From contig WELB01000298.1 of assembly GCA_009602725.1 (NCBI GenBank), forward strand, positions 50,613-98,598: 47,986 nt of DNA, in the 5' to 3' direction. Positions 19,831 to 47,986 of the stretch are shown here, one piece after another. Made by a program: the position numbers and the translations under genes. This DNA is from Spirogloea muscicola (Eukaryota > Streptophyta > Zygnematophyceae > Spirogloeales > Spirogloeaceae). Position 1 is the stretch's first letter. Every line of letters begins with the position of its first letter. Under the pieces are notes generated by a model, which saw only the letters and a program-made list of their open reading frames with translations, was not told where the DNA came from and searched no databases.

Positions 19831-19894
19831 TAAAGCCGGCCTGGGGCTGCGAGGAGCTCCCGCAGAGAGACGCATGCGAATGAGGTCTAACGCT

Positions 19895-20080: not shown

Positions 20081-20112
<32 letters not shown>

Positions 20113-28450: not shown

Positions 28451-28797
28451 TCTGACCCAAGAAAAGCGCCTTGAGTGGGGGGTAACAACCCTGTTGCCGC
28501 CAGATTTGACTCCCTGCCGTAATGTGGCCAACAGCGGCAGTGGCAGCCTATCACAAAATGAAGTGAAATGGGAGACGGCTCTTGAAGAGCCAAATCCCTC
28601 TGGTGGTGGTGATTGAAGCGCTTGCCAGTGTGACTTTCCACCTTGCAAATGCCAATGCATGCCATTGCAAGGGCCTGAGACTCACATAGGACGTTGATCT
28701 CGTGGCCTGTGAAGTTGTCCCGCCTGCTTTTTGGCAGCCCAGGCAGCTTTTGTGGTGCAGGATAGGCGGAAGCATCGTTGCAGACCTGTTGGCAAGG
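28451..28797. other. short intergenic, 3' flank of the GCIP gene
   Basis: Between the right arm of the palindrome and the stop codon of the GCIP-like gene. No independent gene was recognised. Confidence 0.5.
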
Positions 28798-30848
28798 TCA
28801 CAAACCGTCTAGCGCATTTACAAAGTCTGTCGCAGCAGCTCGGCATGCGCCGACCGCAACGTCAAGCTTCTCAAGTGCGGTGTTCGTCGCAATGGAGGAC
28901 AGCTCCGAGGCCTCGGCGAGTGCCCTGGACCGACCCAGGGCTGCAGCCGCCTCACCAAGAGCCCCTGCTAGATCCCGCGCATAGCGCCGCAGCTCGGCGT
29001 CGTCCTGTGGCGGATACAGCGACGCGCCCAGCTCATCGACCGCCCGGGACGCTGCCCGAGTGTGGTCCAGCGCGGCCTCCAGGTCGGCCGCCACGGGCTC
29101 CGGGGTGCCACCTCCTGGCGGCCAGGCGGAGACAGCGTACAGCAACTGCTTGAGCGCGCAAGGACGAGCTCGCACAGAGCACGGGCGCCTGCCACGCGCT
29201 CCAGGTCGCCGTCGTCAAAGTCCCCCTCAAAGTCCTGCACCTCAAAGTCGTCAGTCAAGTCCTCGTCCGCATCAGCATGGGCAGCCGCGGCAGCCATGGC
29301 AGCCTCTTTCTGGTCCTCGCTGCCACCACCGCTGCCACCGCTTCTGTCCTCCTCCCTTGTGCTGACCGTGCATCTGGCAGCAAAGTTGGCACTGAGCTCC
29401 ACACTGCTGCTCTCCTCTCTTTGGTCACCGTTGTCACTGTTAGTGACATCGTCGGCACCATTTGCTGCCCTTGGCGGACGCGCAGCTGGCTGGCCCATCT
29501 CTCCCATCTCGCGTACGACGTCGCGGACGGACGCCGCTAGCTGTGCCACCTCCCTCCCGACCGCTGCTCGATTGTCAGCTGGCAGCAATTTCGCCACCTT
29601 GCAGGCACTCCACACACGGCCCACAAACACCGAGAGGCGCCCTGCTGCCTCTGAAGAACTGCCGCTCTTATTGCTGCTTGTTGCAAGCCCTGCACCGGCA
29701 AGGCAGCAAGAGTAGCATGAAGATTAGAGAAATGCTGCGCACGTACTTGTTTCACAGACTGCTCCAGCTTGATAGTGGATGCCACTCAAGGTCTATGTTA
29801 AAGGCATATCTTAGGTCTGAGCACTAACACATGCACTCAAAGAGCCAGACTGAAGAACTGTGAATCCTCAGGACAACGAAGCCACAATATGTATGAAAGT
29901 AACTCATCCTGCTGCTGGCGAGCAAGCACGATACGTCCCAATGGCTGCGGCAGCAGGTGGCAGGCACTACCCTGTGGGGTCGCTTCGGCAGCGACAGCGG
30001 AAGCCGTGTAGATGAGGGCCAGGCATTCCTCCACCACGGCAGCGGCAGCTGCGCGCTGGGCCGCCAGCAGCGTGCGGCCGGAGCCAGCGGAGGTGCCATG
30101 CAGAGCCACGATGAGCCCGACGGCGGCCGACGTCAGCGCCGCAACGGAGCTGGTGCAGGCCTGCAGGCCAAGCTCGTCGGCCATGGAACCGCAGCACAGC
30201 GCCACTGGGGCAGACGACGACGGCAGGCCAGTGTCAGCGTCAGCGTCACCGCATGCCGCACTGTTGTAGTTGGCGGCAAGGATGACGGCATTGAGGACAC
30301 ACCCTAAACCCCTAATACCCTAAACCCTAACCTGAACCCTAGAGTGCTAGGAAGTAAGAGTCTGGCGCTAATGACAAGGGGAGGGCAGTAAGTGGGCTTT
30401 ATTACTTTTAAGTGAGGGTTTAGTCTTTAAAGGGCTCAGGGTTAGGAGTCAGGGCTCAGCGACAGCGAGGGCGATACCTTGATTGCTGCTCCTGACGACG
30501 GCCTCGACGGCCTGGAAGCTCTCGGCCCGCGAGGCGCTGCTGCCTCCGGCGGGCGCAGGCTCGTCCAGCAGCTGCGCGCGGGGGCGATAACATAACTTAA
30601 CATAACATAATGTAACATAACAACGGCGGCGATGAGCCCACAACACTGGGCCGCCATCGCGGGGCCGCCGGCTGGGGCTCGAGAGGAGGAGGCGTGCAGG
30701 GGTTAAGGATAGAGGGGTTCAAGGGGGGACTGACCTCGAGGGCCTCCCGGAGCCGCAGCGCGGCGCCCGCACAGAGCTGCGCGCGCGCGGCGGCGGCATC
30801 GCCGGCGATTGTGGGCGCCGGCGGCGCACGCCTCGATCCCCTGGCCAT
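28798..30848 (-). CDS. cyclin-D1-binding protein 1 homologue (GCIP family), one-base frameshift
   Basis: Conserved eukaryotic helical protein (GCIP/CCNDBP1) linked in animals to cyclin D and cell-cycle control. Exons in phase: 30848-30735 (MARGSRRAPPAPTIAGD...LREALE), 30571-30478 (LLDEPAPAGG...RSSNQ), 30303-29971 (VLNAVILAANYN, GRTLLAAQRAAAAAVVEECL), 29689-28798. The last exon has GRLSVFVGRVWSACKVAK, ADNRAAVGREVAQLAASV, RDVVREMGEM, an acidic stretch, then ASLYPPQDDAEL. These match the family's V-W-AC, NRAAV and LYPP motifs. The exon changes frame near 29150-29163 between CELVLA and LKQLLYAVSAW. One missing base would restore 477 residues, so an assembly error or a recent loss-of-function indel is likely. 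Confidence 0.85.
30302..30347. repeat. telomere-like repeats forming an intron 3' end
   Basis: Plus strand CCCTAAACCCCTAATACCC, then TAAACCCTAACC. On the minus strand this is a run of TTTAGGG-like units directly before exon 3 of the GCIP-like gene. The AG of a TTTAG|GG unit appears to serve as the splice acceptor (exon starts 30303). Confidence 0.8.
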
Positions 30849-31158
30849 GGCTGCTGCCGCCGCCGCTCCTCTCGCAACCGGCCGCCACGGAAGCCGCTGA
30901 GCGCGACCCGCCTGCTGCAATGCACCTCAGAGCTTCCACCTCCTCTGCTTGGTACGCGCTGTCTTGTGAGCAACTTCGCGACAATGCGGCGGCGGCGGTG
31001 GCGCCGGGCCCTGCACCGCCTCCGCTGCTTTCAGCAGCCAGCAAGGAGCTGCCGAGAGCGGCAGTCTCACAAGCGCGAGAGCTTGCGTCCTGTGTCCATC
31101 CCCCGGCGGCGACAGCGGCGACTGCGAGAAGCGGGCTGCCCTGAGTCCTAGCGCCCTG
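30849..31158. other. GC-rich upstream flank of the GCIP gene
   Basis: 5' flank of the GCIP-like gene. Short Arg-rich ORFs occur on both strands, for example from ATG 30983 on plus (MRRRRWRRALHRLRCFQQPA), but none shows a recognisable domain. Confidence 0.4.
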
Positions 31159-31677
31159 ATGGCGAGCTGCCCGCGAGCTAGCTTCACGGCTCTCGCGCGG
31201 CGGGCCTCGCTTGCGCCGCCAGTTGCCTGCTGCCAAGGACCGCCGCGGCCTCAGGCCCAACGCCGTGGTGCGCCTGGCAGGCGGAACTGCAGCTGGGTGT
31301 CGCTGGAAGATGTGAGTGAAGAGAAGAACTGGGTGTCGCTGGAAGATGAGAAGTGCTCGCCCATAGAGAAGAGTGTCTGGCAAAGCCAGCCCAAAAAGAA
31401 TGGACAATATGTGAGTGAAGAGAAGAATTGGGTGTCGCTGGAAGATATGAGTGAAGAGAAGAACTGGGTGTCGCTGGAAGATGTGAGTGAGGTGAAGAAC
31501 TGGGTGTCGCTGGAAGATGCGAGTGAAGGAACGGCGCTGCGCAGCACGAGTGGTCTCCGGGCGTCGGCAAGCACTGTCAATGTGCGTCTGAAGACCCTCT
31601 TCCATAAGTCCACAATACCTGATCGATTCAGACTTGACCTGATCGATTTAGACGTGACACGAGACCCATCGACTTAG
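31159..31677 (+). CDS. hypothetical ORF with 12-residue tandem repeats
   Basis: An open frame of 172 codons starting at ATG 31159. Its middle consists of five or six units of NWVSLEDVSEEK encoded by a 36-bp minisatellite. One unit is interrupted by an inverted hairpin module (31350-31412), which is read in frame as EKCSPIEKSVWQSQPKKNGQ. The C-terminal 45 residues are unrelated to the repeat. There is no recognised family; it may be an ORF opened by the repeat rather than a real gene. Confidence 0.3.
   Translation: MASCPRASFTALARRASLAPPVACCQGPPRPQAQRRGAPGRRNCSWVSLEDVSEEKNWVSLEDEKCSPIEKSVWQSQPKKNGQYVSEEKNWVSLEDMSEEKNWVSLEDVSEVKNWVSLEDASEGTALRSTSGLRASASTVNVRLKTLFHKSTIPDRFRLDLIDLDVTRDPST
31290..31527. 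repeat. 36-bp minisatellite
   Basis: The unit GAACTGGGTGTCGCTGGAAG followed by ATGTGAGTGAAGAGAA is repeated about five times with few changes. A hairpin module is inserted after the second unit. Confidence 0.92.
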
Positions 31678-31864: not shown

Positions 31865-32586
31865 TCAGCAGCAGCGTGCAACCGGCTGGCCACCTGCCAG
31901 AGCGGCGAGGTTCTTCCAAGAGCAGGCCACCGATGCCACATTGCCGCCCCACGCCGTGAACTTGCCCTGGTGAGGGCCCTTTGGTGAGACCTGGAATGAT
32001 CGCCCGTACCGCGAGGATGCTAGCATGGCAGCTGTCTGCGCGTCGACAGGGACTTGCTCGCCCTTGTCGAAGTAGCGCACGAGATCCAGCATGAAGGTAT
32101 CCTCACAACCAGGTATAGAGCCGCCGTAAGTCGCCACCTGGACAAGGGCGAACACAGAGGCCAATGTCACCATGAAGCCCAGTGACAGGCGCAGAGTCAA
32201 AGGGAGGCTATCGCATAGAGAACACATTTAACATCACAATTCCAAACCAAATCTGTAGCATCCACAGACTTCCCAAAACATCTCCAGAACAGGAGGCAGC
32301 CATCCACTTTTCATGGGGTGTCAGGGTCACCACAACATTATACAGCCACAGCTTTCAAAATAGAAGCAAGAATGACATGGACGACTACCAAGCCAAGTAG
32401 GTAGGAGCTACAACATGATTTGCGTGAGGGTTAGGACCTTGACCTGGCCGTAGTCCTCGGGGAGGTCCTCCTGATCCTCCGGGGAAAGCTTGATGGCACG
32501 CACCGTAAGGCTGTAGAACCAAATAACGCCGACTTGGCGCTTAATGTTTGCGTTGTTGACCTCTAGGCGCCGCTCAGTCATGACAC
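31865..32586 (-). pseudogene. arsM: arsenite methyltransferase (ArsM/AS3MT) C-terminal fragment, left copy
   Basis: Two exons on the minus strand: about 32586-32444 reads VMTERRLEVNNANIKRQVG, FYSLTVRAIKLSPEDQED, DYGQ; 32138-31865 reads VATYGGSIPGCEDTFMLDLV, then VPVDAQTAAMLASSRYGRSF. In AS3MT the matching C-terminal region runs from about GDCRFVSATFRLFK through CQVIYNGGITGHE to EETAAILKNSRFA. The SAM-binding domain is missing, and the fragment is truncated even before GECLSGALY. It lies head-to-head with a second copy. The function would have been methylation of arsenite; this fragment cannot do it. Confidence 0.82.
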
Positions 32587-32616
32587 CCGTGCAGAATTAT
32601 GGAGCTATGCCCGCAG

Positions 32617-33421
32617 GTTTTGTACGGTGAGTGCCTGAGTGGGGCCCTGTACGTGGAGGACTTTCGGAGGCTCATGGCATTAGCAGGCCTTGGAGCGTGG
32701 GGTGTTGTAACCGAGCGATGCCTGGAGATTAAGAATGTGGACATTGAGCACCAAGTTGGTGATATCAAATTCTACAGCCTTACTGTGCGCGCCATCAAGC
32801 TTCCTCCCACCGACCAGGAGGACATCCTCGAGAACTATGGCCAGGTCGGAATCCTGCCCTTGCCTCTTGAGCGTGTCAGCTCTCAATCTGCTTGGCTTGA
32901 ACAAGCTGTGGGTCAGAAGCAGTGCATGCGATGATAGGTATTACGGATTAATAGCTGTGCCCGGAAGACCATGCGGCGATCCTAATGTCCTGGATCATTG
33001 CCTCCTCTTCTAGGCACTTCTTTAGAAGTCCTTGAATGCTACAAATTGGTCAACGACTCCTGCCTGCTTCTTGCGGTAGCCTTGTCAATTGATGCATCTG
33101 TCACTGGCTTCATGATGAGGTTGGCAGCTGAGCTTCGCCCTTGTCCAGGTGGCGGTCTACGATGGTTCCATTCTTGGGTGTGAGAGTACCTTTGTGCTGG
33201 ATACTGTGCGCTCATTTCCTAAGGACGTGCAAGTCCCTGTGGACGCAGTTACGGCCGCCATGCTGGCATGCTCAAGATACGGGCAAGCGTTCCAGGTCTC
33301 ACCAAAGGGCCCGCACCAGGGCAGGTTCACGGCGTGGAGCAGCGGTGTGGCCTCGGTAGCTGGCTCTTGGACGGGCCCTGCCGCTCTGCCAGGTGGTCAG
33401 TCGGCTGCACGCTGCTGCTGA
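32617..33421 (+). pseudogene. arsM: ArsM/AS3MT C-terminal fragment, right copy
   Basis: Exon 32617-32844 (acceptor CCGCAG) reads VLYGECLSGALYVEDFRRLM, GVVTERCLEIKNVDIEHQVG, FYSLTVRAIKLPPTDQED, ENYGQ. Exon 33149-33421 reads VAVYDGSILGCESTFVLDTV, VPVDAVTAAMLACSRYGQAF, then SPKGPHQGRFTAW and a stop. The order matches the last third of AS3MT (GECLGGALY, VIGDCRFVS, VIYNGGI, ETAAIL). The exons join in phase 0 and are intact, but the N-terminal methyltransferase domain is absent, because the inverted left copy occupies the place where it should be. Either a gene fragment or the 3' exons of a gene broken by rearrangement. Confidence 0.85.
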
Positions 33422-33950
33422 CTCGTCCCCGTTCTGGAGGAGCCTCTGGTGGTTGCTAATTGGACACCACGTGCTACGTCTGCATCTCCTTGGAACTCCA
33501 TCTCGAAATGCATGTGCAACATGGAATGCTCTAGTTATGCAGTCTGCAGCTGAGCAACACAATTCAGGGACTGGACCAAGTCCGACGGTCTTCACTTACT
33601 GCTGACTGTTGTGGCAGTTATCGATGAGTTCTGAGGGTCCTGAAAGCATTGTGTCGGCCGGTGCCAACATTTGTTGGATAAATACAGAAGTAGGAAGTTG
33701 CTCTACCGGATCCTCCCGAAGGGCTTTGACTAGCACACACTGGATACACTGCAACATCGGTGCAGCAGAAAGCATCGTCCTCCATAAGCCACCTTGTCGC
33801 CTTGGCGACGCAAGGAAGACCTCAAGAAAACGAGTCACTTTCTAAGCATAATCATCGCACCAACGCCGCTTCAGCAGCAATGGCGTAATCGCGCAGCAAG
33901 TGAATTGAGGAGTACTACAGCTCCTCTAGAGTCTCAAACCGGTTCCCTTG
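33422..33950. other. 3' flank of the ArsM fragment, nothing else recognised
   Basis: The first about 130 bp are still homologous to the inverted left copy (GGAGCCTCTGGTGGTTGC in both). After about 33560 no gene or repeat was recognised. Confidence 0.5.
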
Positions 33951-34180
33951 ACCGCATGTAGGTGCGTCAGTTAATTGGTCGCAATGGCTGGTTGACCCGT
34001 TTGGCAGCGCTTTTGTCGCCCATCTGCCGTTACCACCATGGCAGGCTTGACCAAAAGTCTGACCGTCTGGCAGAGGCTGCTGCTCTCTAAGACAAGAATA
34101 AAGCCATGCTTTTGGTTAGGACTACCGTGGATTCTGCTGCAACTGCCGCAGTTTCTACTGGCATTAATAGGTTGGTAAGG
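33950..34180 (+). pseudogene. fragment of the rhodanese gene (intron 3, exon 4, intron 4)
   Basis: Resembles 36483-36720 base by base: GGTTGACCCG, GCTGGCAGCG-like stretch, CCATGGCAGGCTTGACCAAA, TGGCAGAGG and a GCTGCAACTGCCGCAG end. The exon (in the intact gene LTKNRDILAEVAARFAKTDN) is broken by shifts and a TAA here. It is followed directly by a LINE fragment. Confidence 0.75.
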
Positions 34181-34184
34181 TGGC

Positions 34185-35215
34185 AGCGGGGCTTCCTCAC
34201 TATGTGGTCAAACGCTCTGCCGATATACAAGTCCCTTCGGCTCTCGGACGACCTGTTTCTTCCAGCGCTGCATCACCACCTCGGCCACCCCCCCCTTTGC
34301 CTTGCTGGCATCCGCCGACGCAAGTGTGGCCATGTTGCCGATAATAAGCTCGCTATAGCTGCGCACATGCTGAGGTGCGTTGAGGGGGGTGAGCGCATTG
34401 CCACAACTTACTCAGATATACTATTGTTGGAAATGTGCGCAAGCGGGGTGTTATCCAGCAATAACGGTGTCCGGCATCATGCCAATCTCCACAAGGCGCG
34501 GCAAACCATGCGTGCAGCGATTGGATGTGGTCGCCACCCCCCGGTGTGGTGGTCCTCGCCAGCTCCTGGACGTGATACTCATGGACGCATACAAGGCTGG
34601 AGCACCCAAGTCAACCGTGCCTGGGTAGGCAACGTCCAGCGTGGAGGGCAAAAAGGAGAGGCGTTACAAGGACCACCTCCAAGACCACTTCTATCCGAGC
34701 GCTATGAATGCTGACGGTGGCTATTGTTGGTCCTCCCTCATCCAGCATCTGGCTTGACTGGTTGACGCGCGTCGTCGAAGTCGGGGGGGCAGCTTGGGGC
34801 ATACTAAGAACGGCTCTTTCAGTGGACGGCAATAGCTGTGAGAGGCCAGCCCCAAAGGAATGTACAGGGTCTGAAAGGGCCGGATGGCGCAAAAAGCAGG
34901 ATACTAGTCACCAAGACGTCAGCAAATGGGCTCTCAATCGATACTAGTCAGTTAAGTGCAAGTCAGAATAAGTAGAGGGCGAAAAAGCGTCACCATGACG
35001 GCACACTAGCATTCCGCAGGCATTAGTTTGCATGTTACAGAATGCGGCTGTCGCTTGATTTGCAGCGCTCGCATGCTTTGTCTATGCATCAACGTGCTGG
35101 TAGTGCTCTCAGTCAAGGCACTGGCTTCCATGGCGGCGCTCCGGCTCCCCAAGTTAGCTTGTCGAATTCGTATGTGCTCACCCGTGGGTACTAACGTCAC
35201 ACTGTTAGCTTTAGC
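34185..35215 (+). mobile_element. LINE family B C-terminal copy, interrupted
   Basis: Encodes, with shifts, the C-terminal zinc knuckle (CGHVADNKLAIAAHMLRC), ISTRRGKPCVQRLDVV, GGPRQLLDVILMDAYKAGAP, and ends near SYVLTRGY. It matches the copy at 20416-21060. A 202-bp insert splits it at 34806-35007. Confidence 0.85.
34806..35007 (-). mobile_element. nested 202-bp insertion carrying the hairpin module
   Basis: The LINE B sequence GGCATACTAGC is split. The left part ends GGCATACT (34798-34805) and the right part resumes after GGCACACT (35000-35007), an imperfect 8-bp target duplication. The insert contains the inverted module GCTGTGAGAGGCCAGCCCC, then AAAGGAATGTACAGG and TGAAAGGGCCGGA. No coding capacity. 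Confidence 0.8.
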
Positions 35216-35337
35216 CACCTTAGCTTAGGTGCTTCGTTTTATGTAGCCTTATCCTTTTTGCATTAGTTTTTGCCGGAACAATGTATCGAGTTTGGCCTCC
35301 CTTCCATATCATGCGCACCGCGCGCCTTATGTTCTTT

Positions 35338-35530
35338 GCACCAGAAAGCCGGTCGAGCCTTAGCTGGTGGCACAAGAGCTTGTCAACTACTGTCCGGTGT
35401 TAGGGCATCAGTTAGCGACCTCTGTGTGCTGACTCGTGGTTACTGAGCGGGTCAGCTTAGCGGCAGGTGATGTACATCTGTCAATGTGCTTGCCTTTTGT
35501 ACTCTCTTTTGTACTTGGCCACACGGGCGC
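35338..35530 (+). mobile_element. LINE family A 5'-truncated copy
   Basis: Matches 42235-42420 of the full-length element: AAAGCCGGTCGAGCCTTAGC, GACCTCTGTGTGCTGACTCG, GGTTACTGAGCGGGTCAGC, and the AATGTGCTTGCC tail. Only the last about 35 codons and the 3' UTR are kept. Confidence 0.88.
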
Positions 35531-35549
35531 TCCATCACTGATTACACAG

Positions 35550-36100
35550 TCCACCTTTCCGGAGGCACAGGAGCTCCGCCCAGACGGCACCCCCAGCCGC
35601 CGGCCGCGGCCGAGCGCCGGTCGCCATGGCGGCGCCCCACTTCGGAAGCGGCGGACTTGGCTCGGAGCTCGCCTCGGCCGGCGCCAACCCATCGTACGAG
35701 GACCGACCTTGCCCACCACCGCTTGCGCAGATGCCTGACGGGCCCATGAAAGCCTCAGGATATCCTCCACCATCGTGGCGGCCTGTGCTTGGGCACGGTG
35801 TCGAGCCCCGTCCGCGCCTGAATAAAGGAGCAGCTCGTGTCTGGTGCTGCTGAGGACCCTCATACTCGCCCCATGCACGACAGCGACTCTTGGGCGGCAG
35901 AGCCCATGCCAAGTAGAGGCAACTTGCCGCTCTACTGACACAGTGTCTCTGCGTCAGGCACTGAGACCGGCTAATACTTTCAGTGCAGGGTGGCAGACTG
36001 CACTTTTTGGCGTGCCTTTGCTGCGCTTGCGGGAGGGATGTATTGCTGGCAGCGTAACAAGAAATGTCCTTTCTCCTCCTAGTTTCCCTTTCTTGCTGGA
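35550..36100 (+). repeat. duplicated aquaporin-like 5' region (exon 1 and intron 1)
   Basis: Similar to 43430-43900, the 5' end of the aquaporin gene. An ATG at 35624 opens MAAPHFGSGGLGSELASAGA followed by NP and GTACG, against [24 protein letters not shown] and GTACT there. Intron blocks such as GTAGAGGCAA, GCGTCAGGCACTGAG and a GGGATG...CTGGCAGC stretch are shared. The region is directly upstream of the rhodanese and may supply its promoter or first exon. I could not find an in-phase splice into rhodanese exon 2. Confidence 0.75.
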
Positions 36101-36120
36101 AGCGGCTTGAGTTTGTGGAG

Positions 36121-37047
36121 CTCCCACTGTGGTGGTGCCGTGCAGCGCGCCCCTCCAAAGTCGTCCCGGAAGCGGTGCGGTGACCATTCGCAGCGTGCCT
36201 GTCAGTGTCGCAAACAAGCTCATGGAAGCTGGCCACCAGTACCTTGACGTGAGGTCAGTGCACTCCCCCTCCCTCAACCCCCCCCTCTCTTCCCCCTTGT
36301 GTTCAAGCCCACTGCCGTTCGGGCGGGCAGCTTCTCCAATACGATGGTGCTGACATCTGCCGAAGTACGGGGGCAACTGCAGATCGGAGGAGAACTTCAA
36401 GGCTGGTCATGCGCGTGGCGCTGTCAACGTGCCGTATTTGCACAGCACGCTCGACGGTGCACTTCCCTCAGAGCGTCCGCCCGCAGGCGTACGGGCAGTC
36501 CCGCTGTCGGGTTGACCCGCTTAGCGGTGCTGTTGTCGCTCATCTGCTGCTGCCTCCATGGCAGGCTTGACCAAAAATCGGGACATCTTGGCAGAGGTTG
36601 CCGCACGCTTCGCCAAGACCGACAACATTCTGGTGGTGACTAACATTTCCATCGATGCTGCTGCTACTGCTGCAGCTGGCAGCTGACACCGACGGCCCAA
36701 TGAGGTGGTGACATGTCCTCACTGGGTGCTGCGGTTGTTGCCGTTGTCACCACTGCAGGGCTGCGGGAGCGGGGGACGGTCGAAAAAGGCAACTTTTGAC
36801 CTCCAGACTGCTGTGTGTCAACCGAGCCCCTCCCACCCCTTCCTCCCCTCCTCCCCTCTCAAGCGCTCTGCCTTGCAACCCATATTCATGTGATGTGAGC
36901 TCGTCAGATGTCATGTAGCTGCTGTACAGCTGATGTGTTTAAATGACAACTTGGCAGGAGGACATGGTGATGGACATTGACGGCGGCTTTGCCGCATGGC
37001 GCGATAGCAGTCTGCCTACTGAGGCCCCGCAGTTGCAGCAGGAATGA
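36121..37047 (+). CDS. single-domain rhodanese (STR/HAC1-like)
   Basis: Rhodanese-fold enzyme; plant relatives include thiosulfate sulfurtransferases and the arsenate reductase HAC1/ATQ1. Exons: one beginning near 36121 and ending 36253, then 36383-36486, 36565-36635, 36759-36812, 36958-37047, all in phase. Visible motifs in order: RSVPVSVANKLMEAGHQYLD plus VR; NFKAGHARGAVNVPYLHSTL; LTKNRDILAEVAARFAKTDN; the active-site loop GCGSGGRS with the catalytic Cys; MDIDGGFAAWRDSSLPTEAP. The last two match the family's C-x-SG-RS and GG-AW-LP motifs. Intron 3 seems to use a GC donor (CAG|GCGTAC), chosen because it alone keeps phase. The N-terminal exon is unresolved; a TGA at 36108 closes the frame upstream. 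A broken partial copy lies at 33950-34180. Confidence 0.9.
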
Positions 37048-37690
37048 GATTGGAAGCCGACGCCCTTGCGGCCTCCGAACATTGGCGGCGATTGCTTAGA
37101 ATATATGCAGATACAAGGCTGCATGTGCCACTTTAGAGATGCTGTTCCAGAAGATCATGCAGAGAGTTCTGCGCTTGTAAGGGTGCTCACAGAAGCTCCA
37201 GCGGCGCCACGCCCTCATATCAGCCTGATTGTCGTTCTGAGTCTAAATGTGTATCCTAGGCTTGCGCGCCATAAGGATCTTGCCTTGGGCGATGAGTAGT
37301 TAGTTCCTCGAGAGAGGAGCCTATTCTCCTGTACTTGCTTGCCCATCGACACGCCTGGATATGTTGGCTGTATGTTCGCGTGTCACTTTTCAAAGTAGGC
37401 AATGCTTATGCAACCGAAAATGAAGGAAGCTGGCCGGCTCTTGCCGGGCACGCGCCTTGCCTTTGTGCAAGGCCAGAAGGCACTGTGCCAATCGCTACAT
37501 GTGTGCACTTTGATCTGAAGACTGTGATGCGAGTTGCTGATTTCTTGCAAGATTGTGAAGGTTTGCCATGATGCGGAGACAAAACCGTGATGTGGCCACT
37601 GTTGTTGGAAGATCAGCAGGGGCAGTCAGTATGTCATTTAGAAAAAGATGAGGTGACACCCAACAAGCGTGTACCAGCTCTTTGTTGTAC
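37048..37690. other. 3' flank of the rhodanese gene, nothing recognised
   Basis: No further exon or repeat was recognised up to an inverted CCCAACAA...TTGTTGGG pair near 37660-37710 at the edge of a LINE-tail copy. Confidence 0.5.
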
Positions 37691-38185
37691 CAGTTCTTTG
37701 TTGGGTGCTTTGAGTGTCAGTGCTTCGCCTGGCCCCCTTCTTCTTGGGCTTCTTGTACTCTGCTCATTCTTTTTTGGGCTGGCTGTTCCAGCCCCTATCC
37801 TCAATGGGCGAGCTCTTTCTCTTTGAACCTTTGCTACTGAGTCCAACAGCTGCGACTACCTCCGCGCGGAGGCGCATCTAGAGGCTGGTGGAAAGCAGGG
37901 CGCCGAGACAAGATACTACAGCTCAGGATGGACCGGAAGCTCATGACAGGTCATGTGCCACAGGTCCAAGTGTACGCTGGAGCAACACATCCTGGTCATG
38001 AGCTTTTTCAGGATTGGCCCCTTCGAGCCTTGTCAATTCTTTTCGGGCTGGCTTCTCACAGCCCTTGCCCCCATTGGGAGAAGAAAGTGCTCGCCAACTG
38101 AGGATAGGGGCTGGAAAAGCCAACCCAAAAAAGAATGAACAGAGTACGAGAAGGGGGCCAGGGGAAGCGCTAAGAAAGTTTGGGA
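37690..38185. repeat. hairpin-module cluster: tail copy, then a facing pair
   Basis: A plus LINE-C-type tail with hairpin is at about 37725-37825. A plus module (about 38005-38085, TTTTCGGGCTGGC then CCCCCATTGGGAG) meets a minus LINE-C tail (about 38085-38185, GAGGATAGGGGCTGG). This creates another inverted pair like that at 25536-25778. Confidence 0.8.
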
Positions 38186-38189
38186 GTGC

Positions 38190-41100
38190 TACTTTCTTCT
38201 TTTGCAGGGGCGCGCGCCCTGCTTAGGGTAGGGTGGGGGGTACTCTTGCCGTGAGCATCTCGGAAACGCACGGGACGGAGGTGGGCGGTGGGGACCGGGT
38301 AACTTCTGCGAGCAGCTTCCTGGGAGTGTGGCCGCGGGGGTCCGAAAGCGTGGGGGGAAATGGAGTGGGCGAAAGCGTGGGGCCCCGGCTCTCCCAGCTG
38401 TCGGGTACAGAATCAGCCGCGGCGGCCCGCCCGGCCGGCCCCGCCTTCCAGAAGCCCCACCCGCCCGCCCGCCCAGCCGACCAGCCCCCAGCTGCCGTGC
38501 CTACAGGTCTCCGCCGCCGTCCGCTGCCCGCTGACTCGCGTGCGCCAGCGCCCCCGCCGGCCCCGACGCCATGCTGGGGGCTGCTAAGAGCCGAGGCGGC
38601 TCGCGCAGCTCTTCGCTTCGGCGCGCCGCTCGCTCTTACGGCACCCGCAGCACGACTGCTGCGTCGAGGGCCGCCACTGCGTCAGGGGCCACCCTGCCCA
38701 TCCTCCCAGCGGCCCCTCCAGCTCCTCTCCCTCCCCCTGCTGCAGCGGGTGCGGAGGCCGCCGCGAGCGAGGGTCGCAGCCCTCAGATTGTGCGCACGCC
38801 TGTGGCGACCACGACATCAACGTCGACACCGGAGCCCGAGTTCCTTGGCGTCGGAGTGTCTGCGCCTGTCGAGCAAGCCCAGCTGCTTGCACATCCAAGC
38901 TCGGCCACCTCGGATGCAGACTCCGAAACTCCGAACATGGACCCGCGAGTTGGCATTGTCGTCAGCCCACCACGATCAAGTGATTCCCCCACCTGGCGGC
39001 CTTTGAGTTTGTTGGCTCTGCTCCGTCCCTCTCCCCCCCCAGCTCCACCCTTGCACTCTCCAGTTCATCCCCCAGTGCCCGCTCCGGAGCCGCCACCGTT
39101 GCTCCCTCTACCTCCTCTGTTACCTCTACCTCCGCCGCCGCCTGCGCGGGTTGTGGAAAGCTGTCATCAAGCCGGAAGCCGCCCTGGACCCGGTCGCCGT
39201 CGGCAGGGCCGCTCTTCTCAACAGCGCCCAGCCCGCACTGGCCTCGGAGAAGCCCCAGCCACGCGGGTCCCCTGTCCGGGCTGCCAGCGCCGTTACCGCC
39301 CAAGAGGATTGCCAGTCCATGCTCGTTCATGCCAGAACCAACGAAACCGCGAAGAGCAGGCAGCAACGTCGCACCTGCCGGGCTCAGCCCGTCCTCCACC
39401 ACCTCCCTCTCCCGAGAGCTGGCACTGGGCAGCAACAGTGGACCTCCTTCCCCTCCTCATCCCCGACGGGCTCCACAACCTCCGCCACATTCCCAAGTGG
39501 GCACGACGTGGGTGCTGCAAGGTGCTGACGCCCATCCTCTCACGCGTGGAAGCTGACCCTCTGGACGAGGCGGCCTGGGCGCTGTACCTGCTCTTCCCCA
39601 AGCTCGTGCTTGGCCCTCTTCCCTCCTTTGGCGTTGGTGGCCGCAAATGCCTTCAGGACAGATTGGCTCGCTTCGCCAGCGGCAAGTGGGAGGAGCTGGC
39701 TCAGCAGCGTGCAGCAGCCGCTCGGGTCGCGCTCTCAGAACGACGTGCACGTGGAGGCACCCGCAACCAGCCCTCTCAACAGTCCATGATTGGCAACCTA
39801 GCGCGTGCAAGACGCTTTGGCAGAGCAGGAGAGCTCTCTCGAGCCGCTCAGGCCCTCTGCCCCGACCCCTTGGCAGCAAACAATGAGGCCACTGAAGCCA
39901 CCTTGCGCCAGCTGCATCCTCCTCCTCAGCACCCTCTTGAGCCCTGGGTTGGCGAGCTCCCCACTCCTCTTGAACTTTCAGCAGATGCGCTCCGCACGGC
40001 CCTCACCAAAGCCCCCCGAATGGTGTCTGGAGGCCCTTCTGGATGGCTCTTCGAGCACCTACGGGACATCTTCCAAAATGGAGACGAAAGAAGCTTCTCT
40101 CTGCTCCTCTCCACCTGCCGGCACATCACCAGAGCCACCATCCCCCCCCGCATCGCCGACGCTCTCAACTCCAGCCACCTGCTGGCCCTGGCCAAGCCGT
40201 CAGGTGGTGTCAGGCCCATCGCCATGACAGAAGTAATAATGCGGCTGGTGACCAAGGCTTTGTGCGGCGAGCTAAAGTCCCAGCTGTCCACCCATTTTGC
40301 ACCCCACCAATTTGGTGCTGGCATGTCCTGCGGGGCAGAGGCCCTCGTCCACGGGATCCGCGCAGCGCTGGATGTCAACCCATCACACATGGTCCTTGGA
40401 TTGGACATAGCCAATGCATTCAACACTGTGGAGCGCAACGCCATCATGGAGGAGCTGCGTGATCACTTCCCCTCCTTAATCCCCTATTTCCTCATGGCCT
40501 ATGGCCGGCCAGGGCGGCTGCTGTGGCGTTCGGAGGAGTCTTGGACGACCTTATGGTCCACAACTGGCACACGCCAGGGAGATCCCCTCAGCCCCATACT
40601 TTTCGCCTTGGCACATTCCCGAGCACTACGGCGCACCCAAAGCCTGCACCCGAACCTCCTCTTCCCCTCCTATGCAGACGACACACATATCGTCGGCCCA
40701 CCGTCAGAAGTCATGGCGGCTTATCCCTTGCTCGTACACGAACTGAGCACAATGGGCCTGCGGGTCTGCCCCACCAAGAACGTGGCATGGTCACCACGCC
40801 CCCTCCCCACCAACCTCCAGCTCCCACCAGGCTGCCAGACCCCTGCCAATGGGCTGGCTGTTCTCAAAGTTCCCCTTGGCACACCATCCCACATTGCGGA
40901 GGACTTGCGTGAACGCCTGCAGCAACACCTTGCCCCCCTTCCCTCCCTTCCCCTCCTCGGAGATCCGCAGCTGGCGCTGGCCATCCTTACTCGCTGCATC
41001 GGTCAACGAGCTGGCTACCTGCAGCGGACAGTCGCCCCAACGGACATGGTGGGCGAGCTGTACAAGGAGTTCGACACCTCCCTCCGGCAAACCCTGGCTT

Positions 41101-42420
41101 CCCTGATTCAACACCCATCCTTCCCCTCACCTTCATCCTCCCTGCAGGCATCCCTTCCCACACGAATGGGCGGCCTGGGCTGCCGGTCACTTGAACAGAC
41201 GGCGCAGGCAGCCTTTCTCGGTTGCTGGCACCAGGTTGCCTCCCTTCTTCCCTTGCGCTTCCCTTGCCTGGCCGGCCCTGCAGCCGAGGTGGAGGAAGGC
41301 TCCTTGGCATTCCAAGTACAACTGAGGAGCATCCGGGAGTCAGCACTCGGCTCCTTCCCGTCCCTACAACCCCTCCTCACCCCCTTCTCAGCGCTTGCTC
41401 AAGCACCAGACAAAGCGGCACAGGCCAGACTCGTTGCGGCAGTTGAGGACGAGCGTCGCAAGGCGTTGAGGACGATGCCGGATATCAAGACCAATCCAAG
41501 GAGTCTGGCACGTCTCACATCGCTCGCAACGCCTGGGGCAACGGATTGGCTCACCACACACGCAATCCACAACGCTTTCAAAATCAGCCCTGAAGCATTC
41601 CGGACGCTTCTCCAGCTGTTCCTGGGCCTGCCCCCGACCTGCCTGATTGGAGTAACTCAGTGTGAGTGTGGCTTCCGTACGGAGGGCGGAGACCTAGCCA
41701 CCCACATGCTGCGGTGTCCCACAGGCCCTGAGGTGGTGGGCGTCCACAATCTCCTACGGGACGCCCTGGCGGGCTTGATGCGCGACGCCGGCTACCGCGC
41801 CATCGTTGAAGTGAGCAATGTAATGCCCATCACCACGGATTCCCAGGGAGGCCATCACCGTCGCACCCTGGACATTGTGGGTGTACAACCTGGCGGAGGC
41901 CCACGAGCTTTGGTTGATGTGGTGGTGACTGAGGCATACAAGAGTTCCGCTTCCACACACATTGCTGGCCACGCAGTGGGAGGTGCTGAGCAGAAAAAGC
42001 TCCGACACTACTCAGACTACCCCCGCAGTGACCACCTCCTCCCGGCCGCAATCGACACTTTCGGCTGCTTGGGTCCTCGCTTCCATACCCTACTCGAGAA
42101 CATAGCGAGTCTGGGATATGCACGACGCGAGGATATGCTCCCAGCCCAGATGGGTATGCCGGCAGCCTATCTGTCATTTCTGCGACGTCGAGTGTCAACC
42201 TGTCTGCAACGAGCTCAGGCGTATGCTCTGCATCAGAAAGCTGGTCGAGCCTTAGCTGCTGGCACAAGAGCTAGTCAATTGCCGTCCGGTATTCGAGCGT
42301 CAGCTAGCGACCTCTATGTGCTGACTCGTGGTTACTGAGCGGGTCAGCTTAGCAGCAGGTGACGTACATTTGTCCAATGTGCTTGCCTTTGTACTTGGCC
42401 ACACATGGCCTCCCCATCTC
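38190..42420 (+). mobile_element. full-length non-LTR retrotransposon, LINE family A
   Basis: Covers a GC-rich 5' UTR (about 38190-38570), one intact long ORF and a 3' UTR starting ACTGAGCGGGTCAGC. Its last about 180 bp recur as truncated copies at 35338-35530, 11176-11240 and 11445-11495. The exact ends and target duplication could not be fixed, because both sides are covered by other repeats. An unbroken ORF suggests recent, possibly current, activity. Confidence 0.88.
38571..42338 (+). CDS. LINE polyprotein: zinc finger, reverse transcriptase, restriction-like endonuclease
   Basis: A 1255-codon intact frame. Residues 1-230 are Ser/Ala/Pro-rich. A C2HC finger (C235, C238, H250, C254: CPGCQRRYRPRGLPVHARSC) is followed by the reverse transcriptase, with KPSGGVRPIAMTE, LGLDIANAFNTVERNA, TGTRQGDPLSPILF and the catalytic YADD at 701-704. 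A C-terminal knuckle CECGFRTEGGDLATHMLRC (C1031, C1033, H1045, C1049) precedes a PD-(D/E)xK-like nuclease: LDIVGV with D1101, VDVVV with D1116, and K1142/K1143 in AEQKKLRHY. The layout, one ORF with an N-terminal zinc finger and C-terminal RLE but no APE nuclease, is that of the R2/HERO/NeSL/Utopia-like superfamily. ATG 38571 was taken as the start because the frame is open from there, but a later start is possible. Terminal residues are SDLYVLTRGY. Confidence 0.95.
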   Translation: MLGAAKSRGGSRSSSLRRAARSYGTRSTTAASRAATASGATLPILPAAPPAPLPPPAAAGAEAAASEGRSPQIVRTPVATTTSTSTPEPEFLGVGVSAPVEQAQLLAHPSSATSDADSETPNMDPRVGIVVSPPRSSDSPTWRPLSLLALLRPSPPPAPPLHSPVHPPVPAPEPPPLLPLPPLLPLPPPPPARVVESCHQAGSRPGPGRRRQGRSSQQRPARTGLGEAPATRVPCPGCQRRYRPRGLPVHARSCQNQRNREEQAATSHLPGSARPPPPPSPESWHWAATVDLLPLLIPDGLHNLRHIPKWARRGCCKVLTPILSRVEADPLDEAAWALYLLFPKLVLGPLPSFGVGGRKCLQDRLARFASGKWEELAQQRAAAARVALSERRARGGTRNQPSQQSMIGNLARARRFGRAGELSRAAQALCPDPLAANNEATEATLRQLHPPPQHPLEPWVGELPTPLELSADALRTALTKAPRMVSGGPSGWLFEHLRDIFQNGDERSFSLLLSTCRHITRATIPPRIADALNSSHLLALAKPSGGVRPIAMTEVIMRLVTKALCGELKSQLSTHFAPHQFGAGMSCGAEALVHGIRAALDVNPSHMVLGLDIANAFNTVERNAIMEELRDHFPSLIPYFLMAYGRPGRLLWRSEESWTTLWSTTGTRQGDPLSPILFALAHSRALRRTQSLHPNLLFPSYADDTHIVGPPSEVMAAYPLLVHELSTMGLRVCPTKNVAWSPRPLPTNLQLPPGCQTPANGLAVLKVPLGTPSHIAEDLRERLQQHLAPLPSLPLLGDPQLALAILTRCIGQRAGYLQRTVAPTDMVGELYKEFDTSLRQTLASLIQHPSFPSPSSSLQASLPTRMGGLGCRSLEQTAQAAFLGCWHQVASLLPLRFPCLAGPAAEVEEGSLAFQVQLRSIRESALGSFPSLQPLLTPFSALAQAPDKAAQARLVAAVEDERRKALRTMPDIKTNPRSLARLTSLATPGATDWLTTHAIHNAFKISPEAFRTLLQLFLGLPPTCLIGVTQCECGFRTEGGDLATHMLRCPTGPEVVGVHNLLRDALAGLMRDAGYRAIVEVSNVMPITTDSQGGHHRRTLDIVGVQPGGGPRALVDVVVTEAYKSSASTHIAGHAVGGAEQKKLRHYSDYPRSDHLLPAAIDTFGCLGPRFHTLLENIASLGYARREDMLPAQMGMPAAYLSFLRRRVSTCLQRAQAYALHQKAGRALAAGTRASQLPSGIRASASDLYVLTRGY

Positions 42421-42439
42421 TTAATATACACGCATTTCC

Positions 42440-43140
42440 ACTGCGGCTGCTTAGCAGGGGCTTCTGAGTGTCTCGCAAAGAGACGCTTCCAGGAGAGGGC
42501 GGTGGCTGGAAGAAAGGAAGTGCGCGCCCATAGAAGAAGAGGGGCTGGCAGAGGCCAGCCCGAAAAGAATGAACACATGTCGAAGGGGCCAAGCAAATGC
42601 GCTGAAGTTAGCTCAGCTAGCTTCTTAGCTACTTAGCTTCCCCTTGTGCTTTAGCGCTTTCCCTGGCCCCCTCCAACATCTGTTCATTCGTTTCTCTGGG
42701 CTGGCCTCTCCCAGCCACCACGCTCTCTTCGAAGCGTCTTCCTTCTCCACTGCTCCGTCAGAGCTGGGCTGAGGCCTCTCTGTCTCTCTCTGTGCCTCTG
42801 GCTCTGGCCAGGGGACATACTTCCAGGAGCATAGCCTCTCCGACCTGCGCCTGCTTAGCAGGGGTTACTGAGTGGTTAGTAGCTGCTTTGTTTTTTCTTG
42901 TGTGCTTGTCATTTCTGCTGCTTCGCCTTAGGGCTTCGCCTGGCTTCCCCCCCCCTCTTCTTGTACTCTGTTCATTCTTTTTTGGGCTGGCTGTTCCAGC
43001 CCATAATCTCAATGGGCGAGCCCTTCTTCTCTCACCGCCACCGCTGCGCCTCCGGGCCCCCTTGTACGTTCCTCTGGGCTGGCCTCTCACAGCCATTGCC
43101 GTCCATTGGGAAGAGCTGCTCTTCCTCCGCGTCCGTGCTC
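42440..43140. repeat. cluster of hairpin modules and a LINE C tail
   Basis: From left: an inverted module (about 42515-42590, GGGGCTGGCAGAGGCCAGCC); a plus module (about 42660-42745); a LINE C end without the in-frame insert (42791-42870, the empty site) with its 3' UTR and hairpin (to about 43035); and another plus module (about 43055-43135). A more decayed relative is near 43325-43395. All lie directly upstream of the aquaporin gene. Confidence 0.82.
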
Positions 43141-43518
43141 ACTTCCAAGCGCCTCGTCGTTCGTTCCTCTGGGGCTGTGGCCTCTCGCCGCCACTGCGGG
43201 AGCTGCCCCTCCTTGCGCTCCGCTGCTGATCACCCCGACTTGCGGCTGCTGTCTGGAGGTTCCATCTGAGCTCCAGGTGGATGTAGCCACTCGCATAGCT
43301 GTGTGGCCTTGCGCCTGTCGGCCCTCTGGACCTTCAAACATTTTCTGGGCAGTTCAACCACAGCCATCGCCTTCTACTGGAAATGTCTTCCTTTTGTCCA
43401 CTGGCCTTCCGCAGCCTCGACCCCTCCACTCCATGTGCACTACGGCCGCCCCGCGCTCACTGCCGCCCCCTGCTCGCCAGCAGCCGACCCTCCTCGCTGG
43501 AATCCGCGGTCGGGCGTC

Positions 43519-45829
43519 ATGGCGGCGATTCGCGACGATGGCGGCAGCGGCGGGCCAGGCTCGGAGCTCGCCCAGGGCGGCACCAACCCCTTGTACTCAG
43601 CTTGACCTGCCCCGGCCACCGCTTGCTTGAGGACCGCACACGGGCTCAATGCACTGGCGTCGACTCTCGGCATCAGAGCCCCTGCCGAGTAGAGGCAATG
43701 TGCCAGCAGACGCCCCTCTCCCTGCACAGCTTTCTTGCGTCAGGCACTGAGTCCAGCTGACATTATCAGCGCAAGGTGGCGAGCCTGCAAGATTCTTCGT
43801 GCCTCTCCTGCAGACGCACATCCCTGCGACCAAGGGATGAATATTACGCTGGCAGCCTCACATGAATCAATCGTTTCTCCTTCCTGGTTCTGACACCCAC
43901 GGAGTGTGAGTTTCTTGTTGCAGGAAGGGGCGGCCCACCAGGGATTACAGTCCCGTCGCGACTGTGCCTTTCATTGATGATGCGGAGCTGGGCAAGTGGT
44001 CCCTGTATCGCGCCTGCATTGCCGAATTCATGTCCACATTGCTGTTTCTCTACTTCGCCGTCCTCAGCATCACGCATTATAAGGTACTGTGCTACTTGCA
44101 GTTGGAAAGTTCCGCCTTTGATGCCGGTCAATGTTCTGGACAATCTCACAAAGTATGAACGAGGTCTATCCCATTCTCTGCAGTCTTCTAACAGTCACAA
44201 ATCTACTTGCATACTGTTGTGACTTAATGGATTCAATACAAGCAGTGGCATCGACGCAAGCATTGGCGTCAACAAGTGCCCGGACAGAGCCTGCTGCATG
44301 CTCGGGAGCTTCTTCAGTTGGCCTTTCCAGCACGACTCACCACACACTACGCTCATGGAAGCTGACGCCTCACTTACCTTGCAGGACACGCCTGGTGTTA
44401 GTACTGGAAGCTACGGCGTCGCAACAGTCTTCGGCCTCATCATTTTTGTCCTTGTCTTCTGCACAGCGGGCGTGTCAGGTCCTCGTTGATACCTTTATGT
44501 TTGTGCATATTCGACTCGCCGCATTCTCGTGACGGCGGCATTGTGTGCCATATTGTGCCATTGTGTGGCGATCTGTCTGGAAGTTGGATACAAACATGTG
44601 CAGGTTTGTCATGTCGACTTCTTTCTTTGACACAGGTGCCCACTTGAACCCGGCTGTGTCACTGGCCATGCTGATGGCCCGGCGGATATCTGTCACCCGC
44701 TGGTTCCTGTACACTATCTCCCAGATGCTGGGAGCGACTGTAGGTGCTGGCATTGTAAAAGGCTTGCACAAAACTGGTAAGCCTAGACCTGGAGTGAAGT
44801 ATATTCATGGACCCTTCAAGGTCGTGGCTACTGAGGGGAAGGCATTGCTGACATACACATCTGCCGCTGGTAGCTTGCAATGCAGTGCTTGGTGGTGCCA
44901 ATTTCGTGCAACCTGGGTACAGCAATGGAGCGGGACTAGCAGCAGAGATTATCGCCGCCTTCCTGCTCGTTTTCGTTGTCTTCTCTGCCACGGACCCAAA
45001 GCGAGCTGCCCGTGATGCCCACATTCCAGTGCGTTACCGTGCTTTTTGGGTTTGCTCTTGCACTGAAGCTGCACTGATCTCGTCCCCAATTTTGATAGTC
45101 AAATATTTTCCTTGACCCTTTCGGGCCTGCAATTTGTGGCATCGCCTGTCTTGACTGTGCATGCTGTAGTGAAAGACTTCTAAAGGCTGGCACTGACGAG
45201 TGCTTCCGCTGATCTCAGTACTTTGGCAGGATCTCCACAAGCATCTCGGTGCACTGAGAGCTCTTGTGTGCAACTTTTGGAGACTGCCAATGTGACATGA
45301 ATAAGATGGTAATTGCAGGCTTTGGCTCCGCTCGCCATTGGCTTCACGGTATTTGTCATCAGCATCGCTACTGCGCCCGTGACCGGCAGTGGCGTAAATC
45401 CTGCTCGCAGCTTTGCATCTGCCGTAATTGCTGGCTCTGACAAGGTTTGGGACGACCATGTGAGTATCAAGATCCCCGCTTCTTCAGGAACTTCTGCTAT
45501 ATATGCTGATGGCTATTTTGGGGCCAGCAGTCTGCTGATAAGATTGTTCAATAACTTCCAAAGCTTCGTCTCCACTACGAGTTTTTATCACTCGCCTCCC
45601 TGAGTTCGAGCTTTGCTACCACCTGCCCACAGTCTGGCTTGCTATCAAAGAGTAGATTGATCATTGAGTCATCTGAAAATGGCTTCAGCTCGTCTAATGC
45701 TCCCCTTCTTTGTGCTCGCAGTGGATTTTTTGGGTTGGACCTTACATAGGAGCACTTCTTGCTGTCTTGTACTACGAGTGTGTCATCAAACTCGGGGCTT
45801 TTAGGACGATGCAGCGATTCAGGCAATGA
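43519..45829 (+). CDS. aquaporin (MIP family, PIP-like)
   Basis: Six-helix membrane channel for water and/or small solutes. Seven exons in phase: 43519-43592, 43924-44083, 44385-44478, 44636-44776, 44886-45028, 45319-45459, 45722-45829, giving 286 residues, a normal PIP length. Exon 2 has the PIP-like [20 protein letters not shown]. Both NPA boxes are present: AHLNPAV (N114) and SGVNPARS (N231). Helix 2 reads [14 protein letters not shown]. By alignment to AQP1 the ar/R filter is F94, S219, S228, R234, where plant PIPs have F, H, T, R. Exon 1 ([20 protein letters not shown]) was chosen because its GT donor joins exon 2 in phase. A diverged copy of exon 1 and intron 1 lies upstream of the rhodanese at 35550. 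The last exon ends [11 protein letters not shown]. Confidence 0.94.
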
Positions 45830-47165
45830 CGAAGTTCCAAGCAGGTAGGGAGAGGCTTCATCTCCACTCTGAGGTTGATGGAAAACTGCATATTGGAAGA
45901 AGCAATCAACGCATTGAGTTATTTGACAGTAGCGGGGAATATTCACTCTTTAGGAGCAAGTGCTTCTGACAGCGGAATTTGTCGTGGTTGGGTGTTGCAC
46001 ATTCGCCATTCTCACACACTGGTGGCTCGCTCAGAATGGAAGACCTTAAGAGTGTCAACACGTTCGTAGGAAATGGGAGATAAACTTAACGTCAGATAGA
46101 ATGAGCAATAAGAGGCAACCAACCATGGAGCCGTCACGAAAGAGCCTGTCTTCTTTTACTTGCAAGAACCAGCTAGGTATGTGGTACCCGTCATCAAATT
46201 GATGCTTGCTCCTTGATGTATGTGGCCATCGACACCGACAGACCGTAGTAAACAGTGCGCTGCTCAAGACTGCATAATTAGAAGCAAACAGAAGTTGGCA
46301 TGTTATTGTACTAATGGTCAAGGTGGAACCCGAGGATAAGTAATAAAAGGATTGACTGTGCTATTTCACACAGTCATCCGAAATGTAGTAACTTGAACTT
46401 TTGAAGTGGTTACATCAAGTCGGAATAATCAGCTGGCTGCTGCTCCTACTTTCACATACACTTACCTAGAAGCTTCTCGTCTGCTTCTTGTCCTTACAGC
46501 CACTCGGCAACAACTTCTCCAACAGACAGATGGTCTCACCATTTTCGTCACTTCATTTGTATGCTATTTTATGCTGACGTTCTGATGCCAGACATAGCAG
46601 TAGTTCTCTTGCCATTGGGCAACATAATCACATGTTCTTCATTGCTTACCTTCCACTGAGAAGCATGACATGCTATGCTCGAGCTAGGAACCGCATTACA
46701 CTTGCACATCAATCATGCAAACCAGCATGTCAAACATTCCTGCTTCAATTGCCACTACTGACAATCTCCTCTTGGTCTGAGCAGTAAACCATCACTCCTT
46801 GTTGTGTCGGCCCCTCCACACGTTCCCTGCCCACTATGCCCACATTTTCAGTAAGCCCTTTGCCCCATGATTCAGTACAATGTGGCGAATCTATGTGACG
46901 AGGCAGCGCCTCTTCCTCTTGCAGCGCCTCTTCCTCTCCAAGATTCAGAAGCGGGGAGGAGCTCCTGGCGCATCACAGTCTGCCCCCATCATGTGCTATG
47001 CCAGGAGCTCCCACCTTCCGCTCTCGAGAAGAAGTAGATAGGCTTCAACAGAGGCTGGTGGCCATGGCCACGGCCGTCGTGAGGCGCGCGTTCAAGCAGC
47101 AGTCGAGAGTAAGGCTAAACACCATCAAGGCCTCGTGTTGTTGTTGTCCGCTACAGCGAATCTCA
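45830..47165. other. intergenic, no gene recognised
   Basis: The 3' flank of the aquaporin, then AT-richer sequence. Short ORFs only; none shows family features. A near-repeat of GCGCCTCTTCCTCTTGCA / GCGCCTCTTCCTCTCCA occurs around 46906-46942. Confidence 0.5.
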
Positions 47166-47986
47166 TCACGGAGCTGACGGCTCGACACTGCGCTCGCATA
47201 CGCGCCCTGTGAAGAACATGGCGCAGGCGCGGGAGGAGCCTCCTGACAGTAGACCGCGACCACGTCCAGGTCTGCGGCCACTACCGGAGATGGCGGCGGC
47301 TGGGCCCCGCCGGCTCGGTGGAACGGGCTTCCTCAGCCGTTGCGGCGGCGAGCAGCTGTCGCTGCCTCCGCCGACCCGCCCGTCGCGGCGGCGGCGGCGG
47401 CGGCGGCGGCGGCTGCGGCGACTTGTACGCGGAGGTGAAGACGTGCTGGCCAAGCGAGAAGACGTCAGGGAGGAGCCACTGCGTCGTCGCGGGGCTGCCG
47501 AGCGAGTCCATGGCCGTGAGCGTGGCAGGCGCGGCGGCCATGGAGGGGGGGGCCTCCGGGGCCTCCGCCGGCATCCGCGCGCGGCGGCGGCGGCGGCGGC
47601 GGCGTGCGTGGGCTCGCTGAACGAGTCGCAGAAGCCGCCGAGCAGGAAGTCGAAGTTGAAGAACGAGCCGGACGGGCAGCTTGCCCTGTACAGGGACACG
47701 GAGTTGAAGCAGAAGCAGTATGTGTGGCAATCGGGGTCGTCCAAGTTCTTCACCAAGCCGTTGCCCTGCCACATGCAAGCAAGCGAAGGTGATCAGCATG
47801 CAGCAGCTAGTGCTCGAGTAGAGGCTGCATGGAGGAGCTGTCCACGCGAGCTCAGGCAGGTCAAGCGGATGAGGAAGGTATAGGCCTCTCACCGAGTTGG
47901 CGCAGCAGTCGTTGTCACCGGCCGGTACCACTGGACACGAGCTGGGTGGCGTTGGGTTGTCTGGCGGCGGAGGGGGGAACACCGGG
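47166..47986 (-). CDS. Cys-rich, possibly chitin-binding (CBM14-like) extracellular protein, partial
   Basis: Minus-strand gene cut by the window end. Exon ending at 47893 reads PVFPPPPPDNPTPPSSCPVV and PAGDNDCCANS. The next (from 47765, acceptor GGCAG) continues in phase with GNGLVKNLDDPDCHTYCFCF, LYRASCPSGSFFNFDFLLGG, FCDSF. The spacing DC-x2-YC-x-C ... C-x2-G-x2-FN ... C recalls a peritrophin-A/CBM14 domain, and the Pro-rich stretch recalls algal cell-wall proteins. After an Ala run encoded by a GCC repeat, this frame becomes Arg/Pro-rich. Another frame (MPAEAPEAPPSMAAAPATLT, LGSPATTQWLLPDVFSLGQH, then poly-Pro) looks more protein-like, so an indel in the repeat is possible. Family assignment is tentative. 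Confidence 0.4.

Follow-up and report, generated by a model that had tools for sequence, protein, structure and literature searches.

Within a 47,986-nucleotide stretch of the Spirogloea muscicola genome (contig C298, positions 50613-98598; hereafter the window), three gene families of possible relevance to arsenic lie side by side: remnants of arsM, which encodes an arsenite methyltransferase, an intact single-domain rhodanese, and an aquaporin of the PIP type with an altered selectivity filter (Table 1). The window is intron-rich. Searches of the 153-Mb assembly (471 contigs) revealed a diverged second copy of the region on contig C50, which had escaped the first-pass annotation of this DNA. 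Comparison of the window from position 11792 onward (36,195 bases, positions 1-11791 lying outside the comparison) with 50 kb of C50 yielded eight inverted collinear blocks. Together they span 22,894 of these bases, with a DNA identity of 81-88% that extends through the introns. Collinearity is broken at 20.1-26.1 kb, where the sequence is rearranged or repetitive, in the arsM slot, and at 38.2-43.1 kb, the site of a retroelement of the long interspersed nuclear element (LINE) type.

On C50, a broken arsM (M2) is followed by a near-complete arsM on the opposite strand (M1), the rhodanese and the aquaporin, and the window shows the same order. The first-pass annotation had pointed to the three families being neighbours, and their linkage is seen again on C50; as both copies descended from one arrangement, however, it counts only once. 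Neither copy holds an intact trio, because exon 2 of the C50 aquaporin is interrupted by an in-frame stop codon, leaving the window's copy as the intact one, and the early arsM exons are gone from the window.

Table 1. Features of the window and of its counterpart on C50. Positions refer to the window unless C50 is named.
Feature	Position	Strand	Remarks
Collinear block	11792-20138 = C50 740.0-731.1 kb		inverted
Collinear block	26098-31308 = C50 725.7-720.5 kb		inverted
Collinear block	32589-37688 = C50 712.5-706.2 kb		inverted
Collinear block	43134-47420 = C50 705.6-701.1 kb		inverted
ArsM fragment A, last exon (exon 7 equivalent)	31865..32137	-	open to the stop; homologous to exon 7 of B, M1 and M2
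ArsM fragment A, truncated exon 6 equivalent	32444..32587	-	5' part of the exon, with the Cys224 position, absent
A/B junction	32588..32589	.	early exons seen on C50 missing; collinear match resumes at 32589 = C50:712451
ArsM fragment B, exon 6	32617..32844	+	Cys224 equivalent kept; assigned as ortholog of C50 M1 exon 6
ArsM fragment B, exon 7	33149..33421	+	ends in a stop codon
Partial rhodanese copy, exon 3 and flanks	33978..34151	+	174 bp, 72% identity
Rhodanese exon 1 and intron 1 block	35618..36084	+	homologous to 43511-43889 in two pieces, 72% and 68%
Rhodanese gene, 6 exons	35626-35693, 36146-36253, 36383-36456, 36565-36635, 36759-36812, 36958-37047	+	GT/AG sites; loop CGSGGRS in exon 5; last base 37047 by arithmetic from the gene model
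Non-LTR (LINE-type) retroelement	38535-42338	+	long open frame, reverse transcriptase (RVT_1, E 1e-18); between rhodanese and aquaporin
Aquaporin exon 1 and intron 1 block	43511..43889	+	homologous to the rhodanese 5' end
PIP-type aquaporin, 7 exons	43519-43592, 43924-44083, 44385-44478, 44636-44776, 44886-45028, 45319-45459, 45722-45829	+	filter F-S-S-R
C50 M1 arsM	C50: exon 1 ending 713896, exons 2-7 at 713608-711612	-	GT/AG sites, open frame
C50 M2 arsM	C50: 716989-719194	+	exon 3 frameshift; Cys224 equivalent replaced

Remnants of arsM

Both C-terminal ArsM fragments that had been annotated in the window proved to be real. Fragment B matches the C-termini of solved ArsM proteins (4kw7, E 1.8e-21), and fragment A is a homologue of B, with 69% identity in an 887-base alignment. 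In the available part of the source, ArsM proteins are recognized by at least three out of four conserved cysteines (44, 72, 174 and 224), and the cysteines of CmArsM are listed (PMC5552862). B retains one out of these four and A none, and both fragments lack the S-adenosylmethionine (SAM)-binding domain.

The genome was also searched for an intact arsM. The C-terminal exons matched eight times, four times each on C298 and C50, while the N-terminal part gave 11 matches, nine of them on C50, one on C54 and a weak one on C5. The gene sought was largely found in C50 M1, which aligns over query residues 5-330 with 4fr0, which we take to be an ArsM of the Cyanidioschyzon type (E 5.5e-89); it has the SAM-binding domain and four out of four CmArsM cysteines and is nearly complete, its start codon being uncertain. 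M2, in turn, lacks an intact open frame. At C54:238901-241900 lies a lone piece of 110-126 bp that resembles arsM exon 1 (77-79% identity to exon 1 of M1 and M2), and the genome searches with the N- and C-terminal parts matched no further arsM exon on that contig.

Over the 149 codons of exons 6-7, B and M1 differ by a synonymous divergence (dS) of 0.175 and a nonsynonymous divergence (dN) of 0.024 (ratio 0.138), and on sequence grounds B is the ortholog of M1. B's earlier exons are missing, since the match to C50 resumes just upstream of exon 6. Seven synonymous and three nonsynonymous changes fall on the B branch, compared with seven and two on the M1 branch; these counts are small, and they suggest that B lost its exons well after the two copies had split. 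Fragment A, with 69-70% identity to B and M1, 62% identity to M2 and a dS of 0.79 to B, is by these measures a separate, older paralog. Two simpler origins were rejected: although its orientation fits the M2 slot, A does not fit as a simple ortholog of M2, being nearer to M1 and B, and recent local amplification as the source of both A and B is contradicted by their dS, far above the value between B and M1.

In the first-pass annotation, amplification of the region and its later decay had been suggested. A loss of early exons from a head-to-head arsM pair that persists on C50 fits the data better as the main event. The arsM remnants in the window most likely represent a locus that is better preserved on C50 and has lost its early exons here, so that two 3' ends stand head to head.

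The rhodanese, the aquaporin and their leader

The rhodanese was confirmed as an intact single-domain protein. Its open frame of 154 residues holds a PF00581 domain (E 1.5e-13, 51.5 bits versus a cut-off of 22.2), and its best solved relative is 1tq1 (E 9.7e-31, query residues 5-116 of 122), with the catalytic Cys aligned. This structure is entered in the PDB as a 'senescence-associated family protein' and is presumably Arabidopsis STR16/At5g66040, a plant single-domain sulfurtransferase. The gene is intact in both the window and C50; the two copies differ by a dS of 0.171 and a dN of 0.038 (ratio 0.22), and a simple simulation that scattered the same changes produced a nonsynonymous count this low in one out of 1000 runs. 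The annotated partial copy of the gene, which corresponds to exon 3 and its flanks, is likewise present. It is old, because it also occurs on C50, where positions 711047-710867 match the same part of the rhodanese.

The aquaporin has an open frame of 286 amino acids with a MIP domain (PF00230, E 2.6e-69) and both NPA motifs. Among solved structures, PIPs are closest, the best PDB match being 3cn6, which we take to be a spinach PIP (E 1.7e-84, 286.6 bits). Between the window and C50 copies, dS is 0.093 and dN 0.022 (ratio 0.24), and none of 1000 runs of the same type of simulation reached a nonsynonymous count this low. Judged by these ratios, both the rhodanese and the aquaporin of the window look maintained.

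In the alignment with the best solved PIP, the window aquaporin has the usual Phe at H2 and Arg at LE2, whereas H5 carries Ser in place of His and LE1 Ser in place of Thr. The loss of the PIP-type His from an intact channel, as claimed in the earlier annotation, was therefore upheld. Five PIP copies were compared (C298, C50, C7, C21 and C37; distant MIP matches on C55, C90, C22, C9 and C17 were left out), and the filter is altered only at this locus, reading F-S-S-R in the C298 and C50 copies versus the standard F-H-T-R on C7, C21 and C37. The window protein thus departs from the PIP filter but belongs with the PIPs by its MIP domain and overall similarity. A silicic-acid channel, OsNIP2;1, likewise has Ser at H5, its filter being given as G-S-G-R (PMC3111385). 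We infer that an F-S-S-R filter could pass arsenous acid.

The rhodanese and the aquaporin have homologous first exons and first introns. Their leader peptides are clearly related, with none of 2000 shuffles reaching the observed score. Between the window rhodanese and the window aquaporin, DNA similarity sets in about 7 bp upstream of the ATG; between the window rhodanese and the C50 aquaporin, it sets in 53-57 bp upstream. When the genome was searched with the leader block at the DNA level, the rhodanese and aquaporin genes of C298 and C50 accounted for all six matches, though more diverged copies could escape such a search. Under the first-pass annotation, all three loci were to show partial duplications; this holds only if the duplicated part of the aquaporin is understood to be its first exon and intron.

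A PIP origin of the shared leader was also considered and dropped: the leaders on C7, C21 and C37 look similar by eye only, with 141-190 out of 2000 shuffles scoring as high against the leader of the cluster aquaporin. In addition, tblastn with the leader at E values of up to 10 did not match the PIP leaders on C7, C21 and C37.

Parallel copies and surrounding sequence

Parallel copies are common in this assembly, as illustrated by a second PIP gene, which occurs in triplicate (C7, C21 and C37) with 86-87% mutual identity over 2.4-3.0 kb, and by window positions 12000-14390, which match C36 (91%) and C50 (89%). In both comparisons involving C37, the PIP copies share an extra 0.5 kb at 71-72%. 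The first part of one window flank matches C172 (83%) and C50 (78%), and positions 28000-31300 have a full-length counterpart on C50 only (80%).

This abundance of copies would be expected if the window contig came from a degenerate haplotype or from another strain in the culture, or were in part an artefact of assembly, in which case the fragment counts and reciprocal losses would say little. The A/B junction, the stop in the C50 aquaporin and the M2 frameshift all rest on an assembly without reads, which points the same way. However, collinear C50 matches flank the arsM slot on both sides, and the gene models and their conservation are coherent. We consider an origin of this kind improbable.

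Several further features were seen along the window. Parts of positions 28000-31300 have relatives on C127, C89, C36, C66 and C43, and an open frame with a GCIP_N domain lies on the minus strand at 28971-29723 (PF13324, E 3.1e-12). The LINE-type element between the rhodanese and the aquaporin, which the earlier annotation had not seen, is without counterpart at the corresponding C50 site. With 40 of 1301 candidates scored, a 1-kb query that also held another repeat gave at least 63 match pieces, and the start of the element was covered at roughly 35 or more places in the genome, its own site included. The window opens with a perfect (GA)190 dinucleotide repeat (positions 1-380). An Rfam scan of the window at the gathering threshold and a tRNA scan returned no matches.

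Possible arsenic handling and known systems

We tentatively propose that arsM, a rhodanese and an altered-filter PIP form a small neighbourhood for arsenic handling that exists in at least two parallel, diverged copies, the window being one of them; we regard this reading as possible while stopping short of calling it probable. The parallel copies would correspond to subgenomes, haplotypes or strains. The rhodanese would reduce arsenate to arsenite, ArsM, now provided from the other copy only, would methylate the arsenite, and the altered PIP would pass neutral As(III) or methylated species, while the shared 5' end may give the rhodanese and the channel related expression. Decay would have been reciprocal, with arsM lost in the window and the aquaporin broken on C50. 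An arsenic neighbourhood had already been suggested in the first-pass annotation; the linkage of the families, the nearly complete M1 and the altered filter speak for that interpretation, whereas amplification followed by decay does not survive as part of it.

The genes could equally well be incidental neighbours, the rhodanese and the aquaporin having been joined by local duplication and serving sulfur/redox or water/solute roles, with arsM adjacent by chance. This explanation comes close to an even chance in our judgement, and an arsenic role and incidental proximity appear about as likely. The duplicated leader joins the rhodanese to the aquaporin without arsM, and both families have many non-arsenic roles. 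Moreover, the 'arsenic' families were picked after the region had been seen; their adjacency is a post hoc observation, and no significance is claimed for it. Chance proximity sits less easily with arsM being found at this locus only in the genome searches, exon-1-like pieces apart, with a filter changed specifically here among the PIPs examined, and with a linkage kept in both diverged copies, even if the latter reflects a single ancestral arrangement.

Further observations weigh against an arsenic role. The open frame of the first identified exon of M1 contains no ATG. The rhodanese loop reads CGSGGRS in the window, versus CQSGKRS in a paralog on C29 and CQSGGRS in 1tq1. In a survey of nine algae, as far as its available text goes, arsM homologs are present in all nine and in none of the arsenic neighbourhoods described (PMC7826186), a finding that also favours incidental proximity. 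Finally, a genome search for ACR3 (TIGR00832) gave no matches; this empty result shows nothing, since a PF00581 search of the same type, which hit a single place on C224, missed the window's own rhodanese.

A bolder version of the arsenic proposal, which we consider unlikely, would see here a third kind of green-algal arsenic neighbourhood. In it, diverged second copies of ordinary genes, namely a rhodanese and a PIP with a shared first exon and intron and with an F-S-S-R filter passing arsenous acid or methylated arsenic, would stand next to the one arsM that the genome searches found, the set being split by reciprocal loss and complete only from both copies. If the arsenic role is true, green algae would have an arsM-containing neighbourhood besides the two already reported, and the aquaporin would show how two filter changes can make a metalloid channel of a PIP in nature; if it is false, the locus is a decayed segment of an ordinary kind that happens to carry an unusual aquaporin. 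The homologous first exons and introns of two unrelated adjacent genes provide a concrete case of local 5'-end duplication, and reciprocal decay between parallel copies is relevant to the loss of genes that follows hybridisation or duplication.

Within the open-licence literature, we found no paper on arsM or arsenite methyltransferase together with an aquaporin in green algae. The closest known systems are described in the available portion of the nine-algae survey, which reports two arsenic neighbourhoods, one of the arsBHC type and one of the ArsJ-GAPDH-PGK type (PMC7826186). These are likewise small arsenic-related clusters in algal nuclear genomes; as described there, however, they are without arsM, whereas the present locus combines arsM, a rhodanese and an aquaporin, with no exporter detected in an insensitive search. 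Measured against Cyanidioschyzon-type ArsM (4fr0), the window fragments have no SAM-binding domain and miss three or four of the cysteines, whereas M1 on C50 keeps all four.

The rhodanese aligns with 1tq1 but differs from it by Gly for Gln in the loop and, in the window, by having a leader exon in common with the aquaporin next to it. Another point of reference is HAC1, which has a rhodanese fold. In the part of the source available, HAC1 is without the HCX5R motif of ACR2 (PMC4251824), and the window rhodanese, reading GCGSGGRS, is likewise without it; this absence is a weak sign of HAC1 kinship, as other rhodaneses share it. For the channel, the filters of Coccomyxa PIPs are reported, in the available part of that source, to be almost identical to those of land-plant PIPs, except for Cys at the third position (PMC3111385). 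With the solved PIPs, the window aquaporin shares the MIP domain and both NPA motifs, but it differs from them at H5, with Ser for His, and at LE1, with Ser for Thr.

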